Positions 158 through 24,112 of a DNA stretch of 27,453 bases are shown here, piece after piece. The DNA is from a virus. The stretch lies in the IMG/VR virus record IMGVR_UViG_3300030104_000146, positions 1 through 27,453 of that record. One strand, 5' to 3'. Numbering within the stretch: position 1 is the stretch's first letter; the number at the start of each line of letters is the position of its first letter. The position numbers were made by a program, and so were the translations under genes. The notes under the pieces are model-generated. The model saw nothing but the letters and a program-made list of their open reading frames with translations, did not search any database and was not told the DNA's origin.

Positions 158-382
158 ATGGGATTTTTAAAACCAGACCCACCAGCAATGCCAGCGATAC
201 CAGAACCAAAACCATTGCCAGAACCACCAAAGGCGGAAGATCCAGAAAGAGAAAGAGAAGCAGAAGAAAAAAGAGCAAAGATTAGAAGAAATAGAAAAGG
301 AAGATCATCAACAATTTTAACTACTGCTGATGGTTTAGAGGATGACGAATTAACAACTAAAAAGAAAATGTTAGGAGAATAA
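158..382 (+). CDS. Small proline-rich protein with GRSSTIL C-terminal motif
   Basis: The product has 74 residues. Residues 6-30 are Pro/Glu/Lys-rich (repeated P-x-P), residues 30-47 are a charged, probably helical stretch, and residues 47-73 are a conserved-looking tail (KGRSSTIL, then ADGL, then KKKMLG). A GGAG ribosome site at 146-149 lies 8 bases before the ATG, and the gene follows the terminase stop by 2 bases. Small proteins of this type between terminase and portal are common in podoviruses, but I know of no defined function. The same tail recurs at the end of the next gene. The final Leu-Gly codons contain AGGAG, which serves as the ribosome site of that gene. Confidence 0.75.
   Translation: MGFLKPDPPAMPAIPEPKPLPEPPKAEDPEREREAEEKRAKIRRNRKGRSSTILTTADGLEDDELTTKKKMLGE
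373..377 (+). promoter_or_regulatory. Ribosome binding site inside the end of the preceding gene
   Basis: AGGAG is formed by the last Leu-Gly-Glu codons of the 74-residue protein and lies 6 bases before the ATG at 384. The same arrangement recurs at 1001-1005 in front of the portal gene. Confidence 0.7.
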
Positions 383-383
383 T

Positions 384-1010
384 ATGGGTGGAGCAAAAGA
401 CAGCGGAGCAACTGGTTCAGACGCAGGATTTGAGAATACTCAGAAATCAAAACTGTCAAAAAAAAATCAAAAGTTAGTTGATACAAGTTTTGATGAAAGA
501 GGTAAAGTTAAATTGGATAATACAAAACTACCTCCTTCTCTTTCTATTTTAAAGGAGCCATTTAAAGCTGGAACAAAAGTTAATAGAGATTTTTTTACAG
601 ATAAAGTTTTAGGTTCTAAAAATTATAAAACAACTTCTAAAAAAGATTTTTTAAACATGACTGTTAGCCAACAAGAGCAAATCTATGGCGATTACATGAA
701 AGGCAGACAAACTGGTAACACCGATGCTTATGGAAATCCTATTAGCGGTGGCGGTGGCAACGATAATAATAACCAACCTATATTAACATCTGCTGCTGAA
801 ACTTTACCAGCAAACAATATGACAGCAAACAATATGACAACTACAGCTCCTACAAACGCTGAAATTACACAAGCTAGTTCAACAACTATGTCTGCTGACG
901 AAATTTTAGTTGCTAATAAGAAAAAGGGTAGATCACAAACTATTTTAAATAATGCAGATGGTTTAGGTAATAGTACCGCTAACACAATGAAAAAAACATT
1001 AGGAGCATAG
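384..1010 (+). CDS. Hypothetical virion-module protein with GRSQTIL C-terminal motif
   Basis: The product has 208 residues. Residues 1-95 are Lys/Asp/Ser-rich and probably soluble, with FFTDKVLGSKNYKTTSKKDFL in the middle. Residues 120-130 are Gly/Asn-rich, and a Thr/Asn-rich stretch at about 140-165 includes a short repeat (TANNMTANNMT). The last 28 residues (181-208: KGRSQTIL, ADGL, MKKTLG) align without gaps to the end of the upstream 74-residue protein, with about 16 identical positions. I do not recognise the N-terminal part. The stop TAG is immediately followed by the portal ATG, so translation is likely coupled. A role in head assembly or the head-tail interface is suggested only by position. 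Confidence 0.75.
   Translation: MGGAKDSGATGSDAGFENTQKSKLSKKNQKLVDTSFDERGKVKLDNTKLPPSLSILKEPFKAGTKVNRDFFTDKVLGSKNYKTTSKKDFLNMTVSQQEQIYGDYMKGRQTGNTDAYGNPISGGGGNDNNNQPILTSAAETLPANNMTANNMTTTAPTNAEITQASSTTMSADEILVANKKKGRSQTILNNADGLGNSTANTMKKTLGA
1001..1005 (+). promoter_or_regulatory. Portal ribosome binding site inside the end of the preceding gene
   Basis: AGGAG overlaps the final Leu-Gly-Ala codons of the 208-residue protein and lies 5 bases before the portal ATG at 1011, which directly follows the stop codon. Confidence 0.7.
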
Positions 1011-2612
1011 ATGGCACAAGATCCAAAAGCGAAAATGGTATTAGAGAGATATAAAACTCTCAAAGCTCAAAGAGTTACTTGGGAAGATCATTGGCAAGAA
1101 ATTGCAGATTATTTTTTACCTAGAAAAGCTAACATTACAGAAAAACATACTAAAGGCGATAAGCGACACGATCAAATATTCGATGGTACAGCCACTCATG
1201 CTTTAGAATTATTATCTTCATCTTTAAATGGTATGTTGACTAATACTGTTTCTCCATGGTTTATTTTAAAATTTAGAAACCAAATGATGTTTGACAACGA
1301 TGTTGCAAACGAATGGTTAGAAAGCTGCGCAAAAATTATGCAGCAAGTATTCTCAAGATCAAACTTCCAACAAGAAATATTTGAATTGTACCATGAGCTG
1401 TTAGCATTTGGTACGTCTGCTATGTTTATTACAGACGATGTTAAAGATGATTTAAGATTTAAAACTTTACATATTTCAGAAATATTTATTACAGAAAATG
1501 AAAAAGGTTTAGTTGATAGTTTAACTAGAAAGTTTCAAATCAAAAATAAAAACATTCCAGCTTTATATGCGGATGCAAATCTACCAAGAGCAATCCAAAC
1601 AGATATAGAAAAATTCCCTTTTGATGACACAACTATTATTCATTCTGTTTATCCAAATGATAAACCAATGGGTTATGACAATGCAAAAAATATGGATTAT
1701 ATTTCTTGTCATGTTCACGAAAAAACTGGAACTTTGTTAAGAGAAAGTGGATTTAAAGAATTTCCTTATGTTGTACCTAGATATTTAAAATCTTCATCTA
1801 ACGAAGTATATGGAAGATCTCCAGCGATGAATGCGTTACCAGATACGAAGATGTTAAACACAATGTCTAAAACAACTATCAAGGCAGCTCAAAAGCAAAT
1901 TGATCCACCTTTAATGGTTCCTGATGATGGTTTTATTTTACCAATACGAACTGTACCTGGAGGATTAAATTTTTATAGATCTGGAACTAGAGAAAGAATT
2001 GAACCATTACAAATAGGTTCAAACAATCCTCTTGGTTTAAATATGGAAGATCAAAGAAGAAAAGCTATTAGAGAAAACTTTTTTGTAGATCAGTTAATGA
2101 CAACTGGAAATCAAAACATGACAGCTACAGAAGTTTTACAAAGAACTGAAGAAAAAATGAGATTACTTGGCCCCGTGTTAGGCAGATTACAATCTGAATT
2201 ATTGCAGCCATTAATTACTAGATCATTTAATTTATTATTCAAAAATAATAAACTACCTCCAGTACCAGAAGAAATCGGAGATCAAGATGTAGAAATTGAA
2301 TATGTATCTCCATTAGCAAAAGCACAAAAGAGCCAGGAGCTATCCTCAGTTATGAGAGGAATAGAAATATTTGGTTCAATGCAAAATATTGCTCCCGTTT
2401 TTGATTACATAGATATTGATGGATTAGTTGGACACATCCAAGAAGTATTAGGATTGCCAGCTAAAATTATGAGATCAAAAGCTGAAGTACAACAAATGCA
2501 ACAACAAAAACAACAAGCAGAAATGGAACAAATGCAATTACAACAAGCTCAACAAGTGGCGGAAAGTGCTGGAAAAGTAGCTCCAGCTTTAAAGGTATTA
2601 AATGAACAGTAA
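1011..2612 (+). CDS. Portal protein (T7 gp8-like head-to-tail connector)
   Basis: The product has 533 residues, close to T7 gp8 (about 536). The N-terminal stretch (RVTWEDHWQEIADYFLPRK, then DQIFDGTATHALELLSSSLNG and SPWFILKF) is characteristic of the podovirus head-tail connector family. Downstream segments such as YVVPRYLKSSSNEVYGRSPAM and the region around QNMTATEVLQRTEEK also fit. Family members form a dodecameric ring at one vertex through which DNA is packaged and ejected and on which the tail is built. The last 50 residues (about 484-533) are Gln/Met-rich and probably coiled, like the variable tails of this family. The gene overlaps the next one by 11 bases. Confidence 0.93.
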   Translation: MAQDPKAKMVLERYKTLKAQRVTWEDHWQEIADYFLPRKANITEKHTKGDKRHDQIFDGTATHALELLSSSLNGMLTNTVSPWFILKFRNQMMFDNDVANEWLESCAKIMQQVFSRSNFQQEIFELYHELLAFGTSAMFITDDVKDDLRFKTLHISEIFITENEKGLVDSLTRKFQIKNKNIPALYADANLPRAIQTDIEKFPFDDTTIIHSVYPNDKPMGYDNAKNMDYISCHVHEKTGTLLRESGFKEFPYVVPRYLKSSSNEVYGRSPAMNALPDTKMLNTMSKTTIKAAQKQIDPPLMVPDDGFILPIRTVPGGLNFYRSGTRERIEPLQIGSNNPLGLNMEDQRRKAIRENFFVDQLMTTGNQNMTATEVLQRTEEKMRLLGPVLGRLQSELLQPLITRSFNLLFKNNKLPPVPEEIGDQDVEIEYVSPLAKAQKSQELSSVMRGIEIFGSMQNIAPVFDYIDIDGLVGHIQEVLGLPAKIMRSKAEVQQMQQQKQQAEMEQMQLQQAQQVAESAGKVAPALKVLNEQ

Positions 2613-2823: not shown

Positions 2824-3665
2824 GTAGTGAAACAAACCAGGTAGCAGTTGAACCTACAAGTCAAGTGTCTGCGGAAACACCAACAAACGATACAACATTA
2901 ACGGCAGAAACAGTAGCATCGGATTGGAAAGCCAGTTTATCAGAAGAAATAAGATCTGATAAATCTTTAGAAAATATTAAAGATATAGAAGGTTTGGCAA
3001 AGTCTTATGTTCATGCACAAAAATTAGTAGGTGCAGATAAAATTCCAGTACCTAATAAATTTGCAACAGAAAAAGATTGGGATGCAGTTTACGAAAGACT
3101 TGGCAGACCCGATGATCCATCTGGATATAAATACGATTTACCAGAAGATCAAAATTTAGATAGCGAAGCTCTTAAAAGTTTTTCAGATCAAGCGCATAAA
3201 CTTGGATTACTTCCTGGTCAAGCAAATGGTGTTGTTAAATTTTATAATGATGCAATGTCAAAAATACAACAAGATCAAGAAAGCGTAGCTGTAGCTGCAA
3301 GAGAAAACAGCACTAAAGAATTAAAACAAGAATGGGGCCAAGCATATCCACAGAAAATTAGCCAGGCTTCTAATCTTGCAAAAAGTGTAGGAGCTAGCGC
3401 ATTGTTTGATACTAATTTAGCAGATGGAACTAAACTTGGAGATCATCCAGTTATGATAAAAGCATTTGCAGAGCTAGCAAGTAAAATGGGAGAAGATAGT
3501 ATTACGCAATCTTCTGGGCCAATTTACCAAACACCAGCTCAATTAGAAAAAGAAATTGGACAACTAACACAAGTTGGATCTGCTTATTGGGATAAAAACC
3601 ATCCTAATCATAAATCAGCAGTTGAAGAAGTTTTAGCTTTACGAGAAAAAAAAAATCAAGTATAG
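2820..3665 (+). CDS. Capsid assembly scaffolding protein (T7 gp9-like)
   Basis: The product has 281 residues and lies directly upstream of the capsid gene. The first 30 residues are disordered and Thr/Glu-rich. DWKASLSEEIRSDKSLENIKD and LAKSYVHAQKLVGADKIPVP, followed by RPDDPSGYKYDLPED, are typical of podovirus scaffold proteins. The remainder is Gln/Lys-rich and helical, with a charged C-terminus (EEVLALREKKNQV). Scaffolds of this family guide procapsid assembly and leave before maturation. The start ATG overlaps the preceding stop (ATGA). Near its end the gene has a run of ten A residues (3646-3655), a possible slippage site. Confidence 0.85.
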   Translation: MSSETNQVAVEPTSQVSAETPTNDTTLTAETVASDWKASLSEEIRSDKSLENIKDIEGLAKSYVHAQKLVGADKIPVPNKFATEKDWDAVYERLGRPDDPSGYKYDLPEDQNLDSEALKSFSDQAHKLGLLPGQANGVVKFYNDAMSKIQQDQESVAVAARENSTKELKQEWGQAYPQKISQASNLAKSVGASALFDTNLADGTKLGDHPVMIKAFAELASKMGEDSITQSSGPIYQTPAQLEKEIGQLTQVGSAYWDKNHPNHKSAVEEVLALREKKNQV

Positions 3666-5584: not shown

Positions 5585-6166
5585 ATGGCATCCGTAATTC
5601 AAATTTGTAACTCAGCATTAAATCAACTAGGAGCTAGTTCTATAACAGCTCTTACTGAAAATTCTAAAAATGCAAGATTATGCAACGAAAGATATGAAAC
5701 AGTAAGAGATGCAGTATTTAGATCTCATCCATGGAATTGCTTAATTAAAAGAGTTCAATTAGCGCAAGATACAGATACTCCAGCCTGGGGTTTTACATAT
5801 CAATATACATTACCTTCAGATTGTTTGCGTGTATTACAAATCAAAGATTACGATGCAGATTATAAAATTGAAGGAAGAAAATTATTAATAAATGAAGCTG
5901 ATGTTTATTTAATTTACCTAGCACAAATAACAGATGTTAATCAATTAGATGTGTTGTTAAGAGAAACAATATCAGCTCATTTAGCACAAGATATTTCTTA
6001 TGCCATAACTTCAAACTTACAAGTTACAAAGTTAATGACAGATAAATACCAAGCAAAATTATCAGAAGCAAAACATACAGACGCTAGCGAAGGATATAAT
6101 ACAGATCCGACACTAGGAAACACAGACCAAGTAATAACAGACGATTTCATAAACAGTAGATACTAA
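5585..6166 (+). CDS. Tail tubular protein A (T7 gp11-like)
   Basis: The product has 193 residues (T7 gp11 is 196). The start MASVIQICNSALNQLGASSI, then ARLCNERYETVRDAVFRSHPWNC, is a hallmark of the tail tube A / adaptor family. WGFTYQYTLPSDCLRVLQI and ETISAHLAQDISYAIT follow in the usual order. The family forms a dodecameric ring between portal and nozzle. It lies just upstream of the nozzle gene, as in T7-like phages. Confidence 0.92.
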   Translation: MASVIQICNSALNQLGASSITALTENSKNARLCNERYETVRDAVFRSHPWNCLIKRVQLAQDTDTPAWGFTYQYTLPSDCLRVLQIKDYDADYKIEGRKLLINEADVYLIYLAQITDVNQLDVLLRETISAHLAQDISYAITSNLQVTKLMTDKYQAKLSEAKHTDASEGYNTDPTLGNTDQVITDDFINSRY

Positions 6167-6168
6167 TT

Positions 6169-8937
6169 ATGCCTAAACAACTTTTAAGCATACCTAGCTT
6201 TACGGCTGGGGAGCTTTCATCCTCTATGGAGGGTAGAACAGACTTTGCCAAATATTTTAATGGCGCAACAAATATAGAAAACTTTGTTGTATTACCCCAC
6301 GGGCCAGTAACTAGACGGCCAGGATCTTATTTTGTATCTGAAATAAAAACATCTGCAAATAGCACAAGATTAATACCATTTACTTTCTCAACTGAACAAA
6401 CTTACATTTTAGAATTGGGCAACAATTATATCAGATTTTTTAAAGATAGTGGTCAAATAGTTGAAAGTAATAAAACTATAACAGCAATAACTAAAGCTAA
6501 TCCAGGTGTAGTTACATCTAGTTCACATGGTTATTCTAACGGAGATTTTATAAATATTTCTAGTGTTGTAGGAATGACAGAAGTAAATAATAAAACTTTT
6601 AAAGTTGCCAACAAAACTACAAATACATTTGAGTTACAAGACGTTGATGGTAACAATGTTAATTCATCTGGTTACACTACTTATTCATCTGCTGGAATAG
6701 CAAATAGAATTTATCAAATCACAACTGAATACACTACTGCACAACTGTTTGATTTAAAATTTGCGCAATCTGCTGACGTGATGTATATCTGCCATCCCGA
6801 TCACGAACCGATGAAACTATCCAGAACTGGACATACATCCTGGTCGCTTACAGAAGTAGATTTTGGAACTAACGGGCCATACATGGATACTAACACAACG
6901 GCAACCACTTTAACGCCAGCATCCGCTGGTACGGGAACGGGTGTAGATATAACTGCCAGCTCAACTACTGGAATAAATAACGGGGATGGTTTTCAAACAA
7001 CAGACGTTGGCAGAATAATAAAATTTAATGGTGGCGAAGCAAAGATAACGGGTAGAACAAATACAACAGTTGTAGTCTGCACAATTACCGATGCTTTTGC
7101 TAACACCGATGCCACAGCAACTTTTCAATTAGGATCATTTTCTGACACTACTGGTTTTCCATCTTCAGTTTCTTTTTTTGAACAGCGTTTAGTATTTGCA
7201 GCAACTAACGATCAACCACAAACTATATTTTTTTCAAAATCTGGAGACTATGAAAATATGTCTGCTGGAACTAATGATGATGATGCTATGATTTATACAA
7301 TCGCATCAAATCAAGTTAATGCAATTAAAGCAATGAAAGCTACAAGAACTTTAATTGTAATGACAACGGGTGGAGAATATTCCGTGTCATCTGGAAACGC
7401 ATCTGCAATTACTCCTACAAATATTTCTATTGTTAAACAATCTAACTATGGTTCAGCGGGTGTTGATGCTTTATCTATTGGTAACGCCACTATCTTTTTA
7501 CAAAGAGCTAAAAGAAAAATTAGAGAGCTTGCTTATAATTTTGATACTGATGGTTATGTTGCACCAGACTTAACTATACTTGCAAATCATATTACCGAAA
7601 CTGGCGTAGTTCAAATGGATTACCAACAAGAACCACATTCTGTAGTATGGGCTGCAAGAACAGACGGAGTGTTATCTGGTTTAACTTACAATAGATTAGA
7701 AAATGTCGTAGCCTGGCACAGACATATATTAGGTGGAAAATCAGACACAACTAAAAATATTATTCAACAAAAAATTTCTTTTACTTCCAATGCTTCAAAT
7801 GTTTCAACAACAAATAACACAATCACAATTTCATCACATGGTTTATCTACTGGCGATCCAGTTTATTATTATGCTGCGTCTAATGTTATTGGTGGATTAA
7901 ACATTTCTTCACTTTATTACGTTATTGCAGCAGACAGTAATACGATTAAACTTGCAACGACAGCAACCAACGCTACAGCTGGTACGGCTATCAATTTAAC
8001 ATCGGCTCCTGGATCCGATACAACTCAATTTATTTATCAAGGTGTAAATATTTCTTCTAATTTTATTTATTCTGTATCTCATGGATTTAAAACTGGAGAT
8101 ATATTTTATTACGATAACACGGGTACAGCGATTGGCGGTTTATCGGAAAATACAAAATATTATATTGAAAAAATTGATAACAATCAATTTAAACTGTATT
8201 CAGATAAAACTTTATCTACAGTTGTTAGTTTAACTTCAGCTCATACTTCAGAACAAACGGATAATATTTTAACTCATGCTAAAGTAGAAAGTGTTGCTGT
8301 AATTGATGGCGATACCGATGAAGATCAAGTTTGGGTTATTGTTCAAAGATGGATAAACGGAGCTGTAAGACGTTATGTAGAATATTTTACACCATTTGAT
8401 TTTTCAGAAGATGTAACAGCATTTCATTACCTGGATAGTGGATTAAGTTATGTTGGCGATGAAACATCTACATTATCTGGTTTAGATCATTTAGTTGGAG
8501 AAGTTGTAGATGTTATTGGCGAAGGTTCAACTCAAACTTCAAAAACTGTATCTGCTTCTGGCGGAATAACTTTAGACAATGCAACTGAACAAGCTAAAGT
8601 TGGTTTACTTTATACTTCTGATTTACAAACAATGAGATTAGATGAGGGTTATACAGAGACTACTCAAACTAAAACAAAAAGAATTTACGATTTATCAATT
8701 AGATTTCAAGATACAGTAGGAGCTAGTGTGGGGCCAAATGCAGCTAATTTAACTGCTATTGATTTTAGAGCTAGTGGATCTCCAATGAACTTGCCTATTC
8801 CATTATTTACTGGAGATAAAACAATAGAGTTTGATACGGGTTATGGAACTGAAGGATTAGTTTATGTTCAACAACCCCAAGCTCTACCAATGACGATCCT
8901 AGGTATCTATCCTAGATTGGAGACAGAAAGTGTCTAA
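6169..8937 (+). CDS. Tail nozzle / tail tubular protein B (T7 gp12-like) with beta inserts
   Basis: The product has 922 residues; T7 gp12 has about 794. The N-terminus (LLSIPSFTAGELSSSMEGR, then YFNGATNIENFVVLPHGPV and RRPGSYFV) is typical of podovirus nozzle or stabilisation proteins that form the hexameric distal tube. Three inserts look like one repeated beta module (SSHG.. or SVSHG.. followed by a TGD or NGD turn): about residues 104-175, 540-622 and 627-700. This pattern resembles the domain often annotated as E1 FCCH-like in phage nozzles. The inserts could explain the extra length and would lie on the outer surface. LVVGEVVDVIGEG-type C-terminal nozzle sequences (about 780-800) follow. 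The last 8 bases overlap the next gene. Confidence 0.9.
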   Translation: MPKQLLSIPSFTAGELSSSMEGRTDFAKYFNGATNIENFVVLPHGPVTRRPGSYFVSEIKTSANSTRLIPFTFSTEQTYILELGNNYIRFFKDSGQIVESNKTITAITKANPGVVTSSSHGYSNGDFINISSVVGMTEVNNKTFKVANKTTNTFELQDVDGNNVNSSGYTTYSSAGIANRIYQITTEYTTAQLFDLKFAQSADVMYICHPDHEPMKLSRTGHTSWSLTEVDFGTNGPYMDTNTTATTLTPASAGTGTGVDITASSTTGINNGDGFQTTDVGRIIKFNGGEAKITGRTNTTVVVCTITDAFANTDATATFQLGSFSDTTGFPSSVSFFEQRLVFAATNDQPQTIFFSKSGDYENMSAGTNDDDAMIYTIASNQVNAIKAMKATRTLIVMTTGGEYSVSSGNASAITPTNISIVKQSNYGSAGVDALSIGNATIFLQRAKRKIRELAYNFDTDGYVAPDLTILANHITETGVVQMDYQQEPHSVVWAARTDGVLSGLTYNRLENVVAWHRHILGGKSDTTKNIIQQKISFTSNASNVSTTNNTITISSHGLSTGDPVYYYAASNVIGGLNISSLYYVIAADSNTIKLATTATNATAGTAINLTSAPGSDTTQFIYQGVNISSNFIYSVSHGFKTGDIFYYDNTGTAIGGLSENTKYYIEKIDNNQFKLYSDKTLSTVVSLTSAHTSEQTDNILTHAKVESVAVIDGDTDEDQVWVIVQRWINGAVRRYVEYFTPFDFSEDVTAFHYLDSGLSYVGDETSTLSGLDHLVGEVVDVIGEGSTQTSKTVSASGGITLDNATEQAKVGLLYTSDLQTMRLDEGYTETTQTKTKRIYDLSIRFQDTVGASVGPNAANLTAIDFRASGSPMNLPIPLFTGDKTIEFDTGYGTEGLVYVQQPQALPMTILGIYPRLETESV

Positions 8938-23383: not shown

Positions 23384-24112
23384 ATGTCATTTGGAGGAGG
23401 AGGTGGAGGAACTTCTACTACAACAAGTAGAGTAGAACCTTACGCACCAGCACAACCAGCTTTAAATCAGATTATATCTGAAGCTGGAACTATATATGGT
23501 CAAGGACCAGCAGGTACTGGTTATGTACCACCATCACAACAAACATTACAAGGTTTAGCTGCACAAGAACAAATAGCAGGAGCTGCTAACCAACAGATTA
23601 TGGATACTATACAAGGCAAGTTTACAAATCCTTTCTTATCTCCTTTGATTGCACAAGCTGGACAAGATATCTATACAAATGTTGCAGGACAGTTTAGTGG
23701 TGCAGGTAGAACACCTACAAGTATGGGTGCTCAAAATGCTGTTATTTCACAAGTTGCAGATAGAGCATTACCACTTGCATTTAGTCAATTAGAAAGAGAA
23801 AGAGCTAGACAATTACAAACAGCTCAACAAGTACCAAGTTTAACTGCTGTTGGAGGAGCTTTAGAAGATATACAAGCTGAAAGACAATTAGCTCCAATGG
23901 CTGCATTACAACAATATCAACAAACAGTATCACCAATAGCTTTTGGTTTACCTTCAACAATGGGTTCTGTTCAACAACCTAGAGCTAATCCAGTTACAAT
24001 GGCTGCAGGTGGTGCATTAACAGGTGCAAGTTTAGCTCCTATGTTAGGAGCAACTGGACCAATGGGAGCTGCAATAGGTGCAGGTTTCGGATTATTGGGA
24101 GGATTATTATAA
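23384..24112 (+). CDS. Gly-rich conserved phage structural protein
   Basis: The product has 242 residues. It begins MSFGGGGGGTSTTTSRVEPY, followed by APAQPALNQIISEAGTIYG and YVPPSQQTLQGLAAQE. It continues with a Gln/Ala-rich helical core (about 65-180) and a Gly/Ala-rich hydrophobic end (GGALTGASLAPMLG ... GAGFGLLGGLL, about 205-242). The glycine start and the ePy-x-x-x-qP-x-L pattern are familiar from virion proteins that follow the GNAT-like gene in many phages. The hydrophobic C-terminus suggests membrane contact, such as a small ejected protein. An AAGGAG site (about 23369-23374) precedes the ATG. Confidence 0.7.
   Translation: MSFGGGGGGTSTTTSRVEPYAPAQPALNQIISEAGTIYGQGPAGTGYVPPSQQTLQGLAAQEQIAGAANQQIMDTIQGKFTNPFLSPLIAQAGQDIYTNVAGQFSGAGRTPTSMGAQNAVISQVADRALPLAFSQLERERARQLQTAQQVPSLTAVGGALEDIQAERQLAPMAALQQYQQTVSPIAFGLPSTMGSVQQPRANPVTMAAGGALTGASLAPMLGATGPMGAAIGAGFGLLGGLL

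Follow-up and report, generated by a model that had tools for sequence, protein, structure and literature searches.

A conserved C-terminal tail on small proteins with different heads encoded upstream of phage portal genes

Small proteins encoded before the portal and the locus analysed

In T7, the genes of gp6.7 and gp7.3 lie upstream of the portal gene, separated from each other by gene 7 and followed by gene 7.7, while in phages PHB01, AnF1 and KpV766 both genes stand directly before the portal gene (gp6.7 of AnF1 was recognized by eye). T7 particles lacking gp7.3 are reported to assemble but to be defective in adsorption or ejection. According to passages of a report on T7 (PMC11784390), twelve copies of gp6.7 are arranged around the portal barrel. 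The same passages describe residues 84-98 of gp7.3 as six C-terminal loops, each lying on two neighbouring nozzle subunits at the adaptor-nozzle junction, with K84 and K85 on the DNA end; the mostly basic front of gp7.3, which is unresolved, is assigned there to channel density by Zheng et al. (PMC11784390). Regarding phages further from T7, excerpts of a preprint on Vibrio phage Peru-2 state that orthologues of gp6.7 and gp7.3 were not readily identifiable, that the small pre-portal ORFs may be analogous to them, and that one protein from the pre-portal place was detected in virions at low abundance (PMC13320782).

We have defined as the window the whole stretch of 27,453 nucleotides analysed here (IMG/VR virus record IMGVR_UViG_3300030104_000146), which belongs to a short-tailed phage from the sea. 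Two adjacent genes in it encode proteins of 74 and 208 residues with a common C-terminal end, which we call the tail, and the portal gene follows directly after the second of them (Table 1). The two ends align without gaps (KGRSSTILTTADGLEDDELTTKKKMLG / KGRSQTILNNADGLGNSTANTMKKTLG), with 16 of 27 residues identical, which confirms the common motif described in an earlier note on this DNA and shortens it from 28 to 27 residues. Their BLOSUM62 local score is 77, whereas 2000 shuffles of the 208-residue protein averaged 28.6 and reached 55 at most. The heads of the two proteins fall in different clusters, with no BLASTP link at E 1e-3 when low complexity is masked, in agreement with the unrelated N-termini that the note had reported.

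Table 1. Features of the window that bear on the two tail-bearing genes
Feature	Position	Strand	Evidence
First tail-bearing gene, 74 aa; head first Pro-rich and further on charged and basic, followed by the tail	158..382	+	ORF; PHROG 831 family
Tail 1, residues 44-74, RNRKGRSSTILTTADGLEDDELTTKKKMLGE	287..379	+	Tail profile match
AGGAG within tail 1, 6 bases upstream of the gene 2 ATG (384)	373..377	+	
Second tail-bearing gene, 208 aa; Gly/Asn-rich, mostly predicted disordered, helical at residues 62-110	384..1010	+	ORF, relatives, AlphaFold2
Conserved C-terminal module of the second gene, about 50 residues, PTxAE ... KKKGRxxTIL...GLG...KKTLGA	849..1007	+	Alignment of 20 relatives
Tail 2, residues 178-208, NKKKGRSQTILNNADGLGNSTANTMKKTLGA	915..1007	+	Tail profile match; phrog_831 E 0.03
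AGGAG within tail 2, 5 bases upstream of the portal-gene ATG (1011)	1001..1005	+	
Portal gene, Head-tail_con, 533 aa; usual neighbour 3' of tail genes	1011..2612	+	PF12236 E 1.1e-134; phrog_332
Tail tubular A / adaptor-like gene; putative docking-site side	5585..6166	+	phrog_394 tail protein E 2.8e-54
Nozzle (tail tubular B-like) gene; putative docking partner by T7 gp12 analogy	6169..8937	+	phrog_376 tail protein; PDB chain 8ck1_A 'Tail Nozzle' E 2.1e-89

Within its own record, the 208-residue protein matches itself and the tail of the 74-residue protein only. Besides, a tail profile built from 68 sequences, both window tails among them, lists just these two genes when run over the window ORFs of at least 28 aa, and a nucleotide pattern of the tail matches once in the window and never in 100 shuffled versions of the window. 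The AlphaFold2 model of the 208-residue protein has a mean pLDDT of 54.7, with ten-residue blocks above 70 only within residues 71-120. Its tail lies mostly below 50, as would be the case for a lone docking peptide and equally for any poor model.

A portal-linked module on different heads

We ran a degenerate DNA pattern covering nine residues (G-R-x-S-T-I-L-T-G), which fixes Arg as CGN and Ser as the TCN codon type, on IMG/VR and obtained at least 121 matches over 120 loci. Among the 121 matches listed, 118 lie at most 45 codons from a stop, with a median of 18, compared with a baseline of about 31% of codons in ORFs of at least 60 aa; the three others listed show an internal stop, no stop, and a stop 66 codons away, respectively. 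An L-G or L-x-G within 6 residues of the end, a feature outside the search pattern, is present in 114 of those 118 listed matches. A same-strand Head-tail_con portal gene, detected by a profile built from 15 portals, lies downstream in 90 of the 93 matches listed with at least 1.5 kb of room, at distances ranging in the first 80 loci from overlap to about 3.3 kb. The misses among the matches listed are L083, L110 and L185. L083 has only 1610 bases of room, and in its relative L069 the portal lies 2005 bases away; the matches of L110 and L185, whose ORFs have 18 and 28 codons, are likely due to chance and are included in the 118, as is a 34-codon ORF of L187.

The tail is therefore a real and widespread C-terminal module, carried by different heads and linked to the portal gene. 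The earlier note had suggested searching phage proteins for the motif and mapping the heads that carry it, and had reckoned with a tail absent or not conserved in homologues; conservation is wide instead.

Using the tail profile on 13,232 ORFs from 188 sources (E<1e-3 scaled to 1000 sequences), we found 239 matches whose end lies at most 8 residues from that of the ORF, and 10 others, a count that includes training sequences and overlapping loci and leaves out 113 weaker matches. Once overlapping loci and repeats were removed, at least 41 sources had two tail genes and 95 had one, the two-gene figure being a lower bound because three named two-tail phages fall below the threshold. A Pro-rich stretch followed by a charged one makes up many of the heads, and others are longer, coiled-coil-like or hydrophobic. 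In 20 relatives of the 208-residue protein the heads vary and the last 50 or so residues are kept, and one locus (L109) has two tails that are 90% identical on different heads. Head clustering with low complexity masked gave 115 clusters, which is not usable as a count of unrelated heads because masking split visibly similar Pro-rich ones.

Regarding known families, the 74-residue protein matches phrog_831 with an E-value of 3.1e-11 over profile positions 10-69 of 70, and the 208-residue protein does so with residues 153-206 only (E 0.03). PHROG 831 is annotated as of unknown function. Epsilon15 gp3 matches nearly its whole profile (6.2e-34), unlike the 208-residue protein, which matches by its C-terminal part alone. 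We place the locus in the PHROG 831 tail family on two features, the profile match and a C-terminal GR-x-(S/x)-T-I-L ... L-G upstream of a Head-tail_con portal, both of which are present. Tail-bearing proteins also match PHROG 4893, 29361, 4566 and 16847, since PHROG groups are formed on complete proteins. No Pfam or NCBIfam match reached the curated cut-off among the tail-bearing proteins scanned, PDB searches with the full profile, the tail profile and epsilon15 gp3 returned no relevant chain and none carrying the tail, and tblastn of the 74-residue protein, in which BLAST masks low complexity, gave no match in named phages. In the open-access and best-ranked results of a literature search we found no paper on this tail and no proteomics placing a tail protein in a virion; in the sections consulted of a paper on the BPP-1 capsid, mass spectrometry was restricted to two major bands (PMC3863775).

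Among named phages, the tail precedes the portal in epsilon15 (gp3), a BPP-1-type Bordetella phage (135 aa), Caulobacter RapA (172 aa), BcepC6B (gp04), Pseudomonas YA3 and an unannotated ORF of Xanthomonas CP2. The epsilon15, BcepC6B, BPP-1-type and RapA proteins have the same tail in the same pre-portal place as the window proteins; unlike the window, these phages have one copy each, and the heads of the BPP-1-type and RapA proteins are longer and different. Two copies each are found in the pelagiphages HTVC203P, HTVC028P, HTVC034P, Skadi-11 and Baldr. When 16 whole named records were searched at E<=1, the tail was present in 11 of them in one or two copies, with E-values that mean little because 10 of the 11 had supplied tails to the profile. 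What this search tells us is copy number, the absence of further copies, and CP2. Matches outside the profile training were the second copy of HTVC028P (1.1e-4), the first of Baldr (7.7e-6) and a partial one in CP2 (0.0026). The five other records (T7, the T7-like PPWS4, phiVC8, ZP6 and Vibrio 448O51-1) have a portal and no tail at this threshold, so the tail is not obligatory.

Gene order around the tail shows some variation. In HTVC028P and Baldr, a small and very basic protein (PHROG 25774; L052:2669-2830, L059:2837-2983) is encoded between the second tail gene and the portal gene, and four IMG/VR loci (L021, L023, L026 and L029) have a gap of some 150 bases before the portal, about the size of the PHROG 25774 gene. 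Baldr also has a gene annotated as a putative acetyltransferase between its two tail genes (L059:2181-2618). In CP2, the tail-bearing ORF (L064:2556-2762) runs past position 2626, where the portal gene is annotated to start, and similarity to portals begins at 3001; the annotated portal may start too early.

The earlier note had read the pair as a duplicated tail fused to different heads. The common tail and the different heads stand; a recent duplication within the window was rejected, as the two tails belong to two classes. In the close relative of the window (L001), tail 1 has a mean identity of 0.63 to first-gene tails of other phages and of 0.48 to second-gene tails, which makes the pair look old. 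Tails of one genome score higher with each other than in permuted pairs: 23 representative pairs scored 72.4 against 56.9 when permuted (0/5000), and 17 pairs without L109 scored 71.9 against 59.6 (0/5000), with kinship uncorrected in both tests. By plain identity, 15 of the 23 within-genome pairs are above the mean of other pairings. This likeness fits co-adaptation of the two tails to one partner, again with kinship uncorrected.

Ribosome sites and codon choice at the end of the tail

Near the ends of both genes the sequence reads TTA GGA G, with AGGAG 5-6 bases before the next ATG, as the earlier note had pointed out. Its placing of Leu-Gly as the last codons needs correcting: these codons are next to last, and one further codon stands before the stop (GAA in gene 1, GCA in gene 2). 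In low-GC tail genes, the final Gly codon is GGA in 81 of 95 cases, compared with 67 of 279 internal tail Gly codons. Taking one gene per 60%-identity cluster, the final Gly codon ends in a purine in 18 of 22 and internal ones in 20 of 70 (p 1.3e-5), with a weaker effect in the remaining 30 clusters (final 15/30, internal 40/154; p 0.015). Because the final Gly codon is biased to GGA, the proposed coding and regulatory dual use is supported. In close gene pairs of the window (gap of at most 6) with a Shine-Dalgarno (SD) match of at least 4 bases, the match lies inside the upstream gene in 12 of 12, since such spacing almost forces it, and a match of this length is absent in 7 of the 19 close pairs. 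The overlap with the ribosome site is selected in codon choice, yet it is ordinary for packed genes. As a minor observation, the nozzle gene begins 2 bases past the preceding gene and has no SD match of 3 bases or more before its ATG.

Likeness to gp7.3 and gp6.7 and the possible role of the tail

By profile alignment, 77 short tail proteins scored 27.6 against six gp7.3 sequences (column-shuffle maximum 15.1; 0/150), and 16 second-gene proteins scored 27.0 (maximum 17.7; 0/100), with HHalign probabilities of only 52-65%. In the realigned output, both sets put G-R-x-S on G83-K84-K85-S86 of T7 gp7.3; for the second-gene proteins this register appears on realignment only, and their scored alignment stops short of the GK motif, at template column 78. 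The match fades when the proteins are divided into parts. The tail alone gave a score reached by 49 of 100 shuffles, so that direct homology of the tail to gp7.3 is not supported; the basic stretch plus tail was reached by 10 of 100 (11 of 100 for tails picked independently of the pattern), and heads alone by 0 of 100 at a low score of 11.8. As the tail alone fails and the heads alone pass with a low score, the match rests on the layout of the whole protein. A tail HMM did not clearly pick out gp7.3, as 39 to 202 of 1000 shuffles reached the six scores, nor gp6.7 (108 to 845 of 1000). At E<=1 neither window protein matches the gp7.3 profile (PHROG 1320), and gp57 of HTVC034P does so with an E-value of 0.23.

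Gp7.3 (PHROG 1320; PDB 9JYZ) resembles the tail proteins in being a small basic protein, mostly unresolved in the structure and encoded upstream of the portal, in having GKKSLSV in register with GRxSTIL on realignment, and in that most of its relatives among the tblastn matches listed align only over the C-terminal third. It differs in its end, GGGINI, which has no KK-x-LLG. Because the match fades in this way, we limit the likeness to layout, place and a short core, for which common descent is possible. Gp6.7 (PHROG 1391) is likewise a second small pre-portal protein, and shares a GRK-x-L stretch and, with part of the tail family, an MCFxPK-type start. Its profile match to the tail proteins is weak, as 3 of 150 shuffles reach the profile-profile score (1 of 100 for second-gene proteins), and phrog_1391 matches the 74-residue protein at E 0.13, which leaves that protein outside the family. 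The T7-type gp6.7 and gp7.3 families align with each other (26.5; 0/150 shuffles) and have in common a G-(R/K)-K-x-L-x-V stretch (L188:236-535, L193:565-831) that scores 15.6, the maximum of 100 column shuffles being 13.9.

By analogy with T7, we tentatively favour reading the tail as a short linear docking peptide that would hold disordered, exchangeable minor virion proteins in the portal-tail channel, and give this somewhat less than an even chance. Confidence is reduced because the scored alignment of the second-gene proteins to gp7.3 ends ahead of the motif. Docking of this kind would operate in short-tailed phages with a Head-tail_con portal, where the heads could be exchanged, and the window genes would encode two such channel proteins, one from each of the two old classes. 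The earlier note had named the portal or terminase as possible partners, which is not supported; by the gp7.3 analogy, the adaptor/nozzle end of the channel would be the most likely place for the tails to dock, with the Pro-rich and basic heads perhaps running along the channel as a plug, an assembly scaffold or the first proteins to be ejected. Presence in the virion, disorder in the channel, the binding site and ejection are all parts that we infer. A broader version, possible although doubtful, is that the tail is one interchangeable docking code for serial sites in the portal-tail channel, such that any head (DNA-clamping, membrane-active, enzymatic or coiled-coil) would become a loaded channel protein. 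Phages with two genes would fill two neighbouring sets of sites with different cargo, and gp6.7 and gp7.3 of T7 would be a worn-down two-gene case.

If the docking reading is true, the uncharacterised pre-portal genes of epsilon15-type, BPP-1-type and abundant SAR11 phages would gain one testable role, as minor channel proteins with a common peptide. The newly seen structures of T7 gp6.7 and gp7.3 would extend to phages without recognisable orthologues, and the tail would be a natural short tag with which foreign proteins could be loaded into the tail channel of laboratory phages.

The main rival, which we consider rather unlikely, takes gp6.7 as the model: the proteins would ring the portal barrel inside the head, with an N-terminal loop on the portal as in residues 2-15 of T7 gp6.7, and would hold or guide the internal core, the tail binding the core or a gp14-like ejection protein and not the nozzle. 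One could argue for it from the starts of the short heads, as 26 of 101 distinct ones have PK(M/I) among their first 16 residues (mean of 1.5 and maximum of 6 after shuffling; the sequences are related and not independent), a feature like the MCFSPKIK start of T7 gp6.7, and Cys stands at residue 2 in 17 of the 101, compared with 1.3% of 708 long ORFs. Furthermore, the gp6.7 profile gave a mean of 2.07 bits over the 77 short tail proteins and at most 0.51 in 50 shuffled sets, the order gp6.7, gp7.3, portal is the same in PHB01, and weak matches to phrog_13568 are seen in some tail proteins as well as in one of the three gp6.7 proteins scanned. However, the window's own proteins have neither Cys at residue 2 nor PK(M/I), and the weak profile-profile alignment and phrog_1391 match described above speak against it. 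We regard as still less probable that the tail is a sorting tag, bringing small cargo into the procapsid via scaffold, portal or protease and playing no role in the finished tail; its C-terminal position, the varied heads, the gene place between terminase and portal, and the annotation of a protease or peptidase gene in five named phages, either between portal and capsid or close by, would suit such a tag, but the T7 precedent favours channel sites.

That the tail is kept mainly because its codons carry the ribosome site of the next gene, with protein similarity as a consequence, seems very improbable. The bias of the final Gly codon to GGA/GGG is what this would produce, and among the matches listed, an SD of at least 4 bases lies entirely within the tail gene for 37 of the 70 pattern-locus tails that are closely followed by a next start. 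Nevertheless, conservation begins some 20 residues upstream of the SD, it also holds in the 26 of those 70 listed tails that have no SD of this length, and other close pairs of the window have internal SDs yet no tail peptide. Finally, similarity of the two tails by chance or low complexity, which the frequently Pro-rich heads of low complexity could suggest, has a negligible probability, as it is refuted by the shuffle test (77 against a maximum of 55), the nucleotide-pattern shuffles and the scan statistics.

Record IMGVR_UViG_3300030372_000355 (L001, L010) is a close relative of the window, with tail proteins 99% and 100% identical to those described here. Elsewhere in the window, the end of the protein encoded at 23384-24112 weakly resembles gp7, an ejection protein of P22, with an E-value of 2.6e-4 that falls short of the Pfam cut-off.
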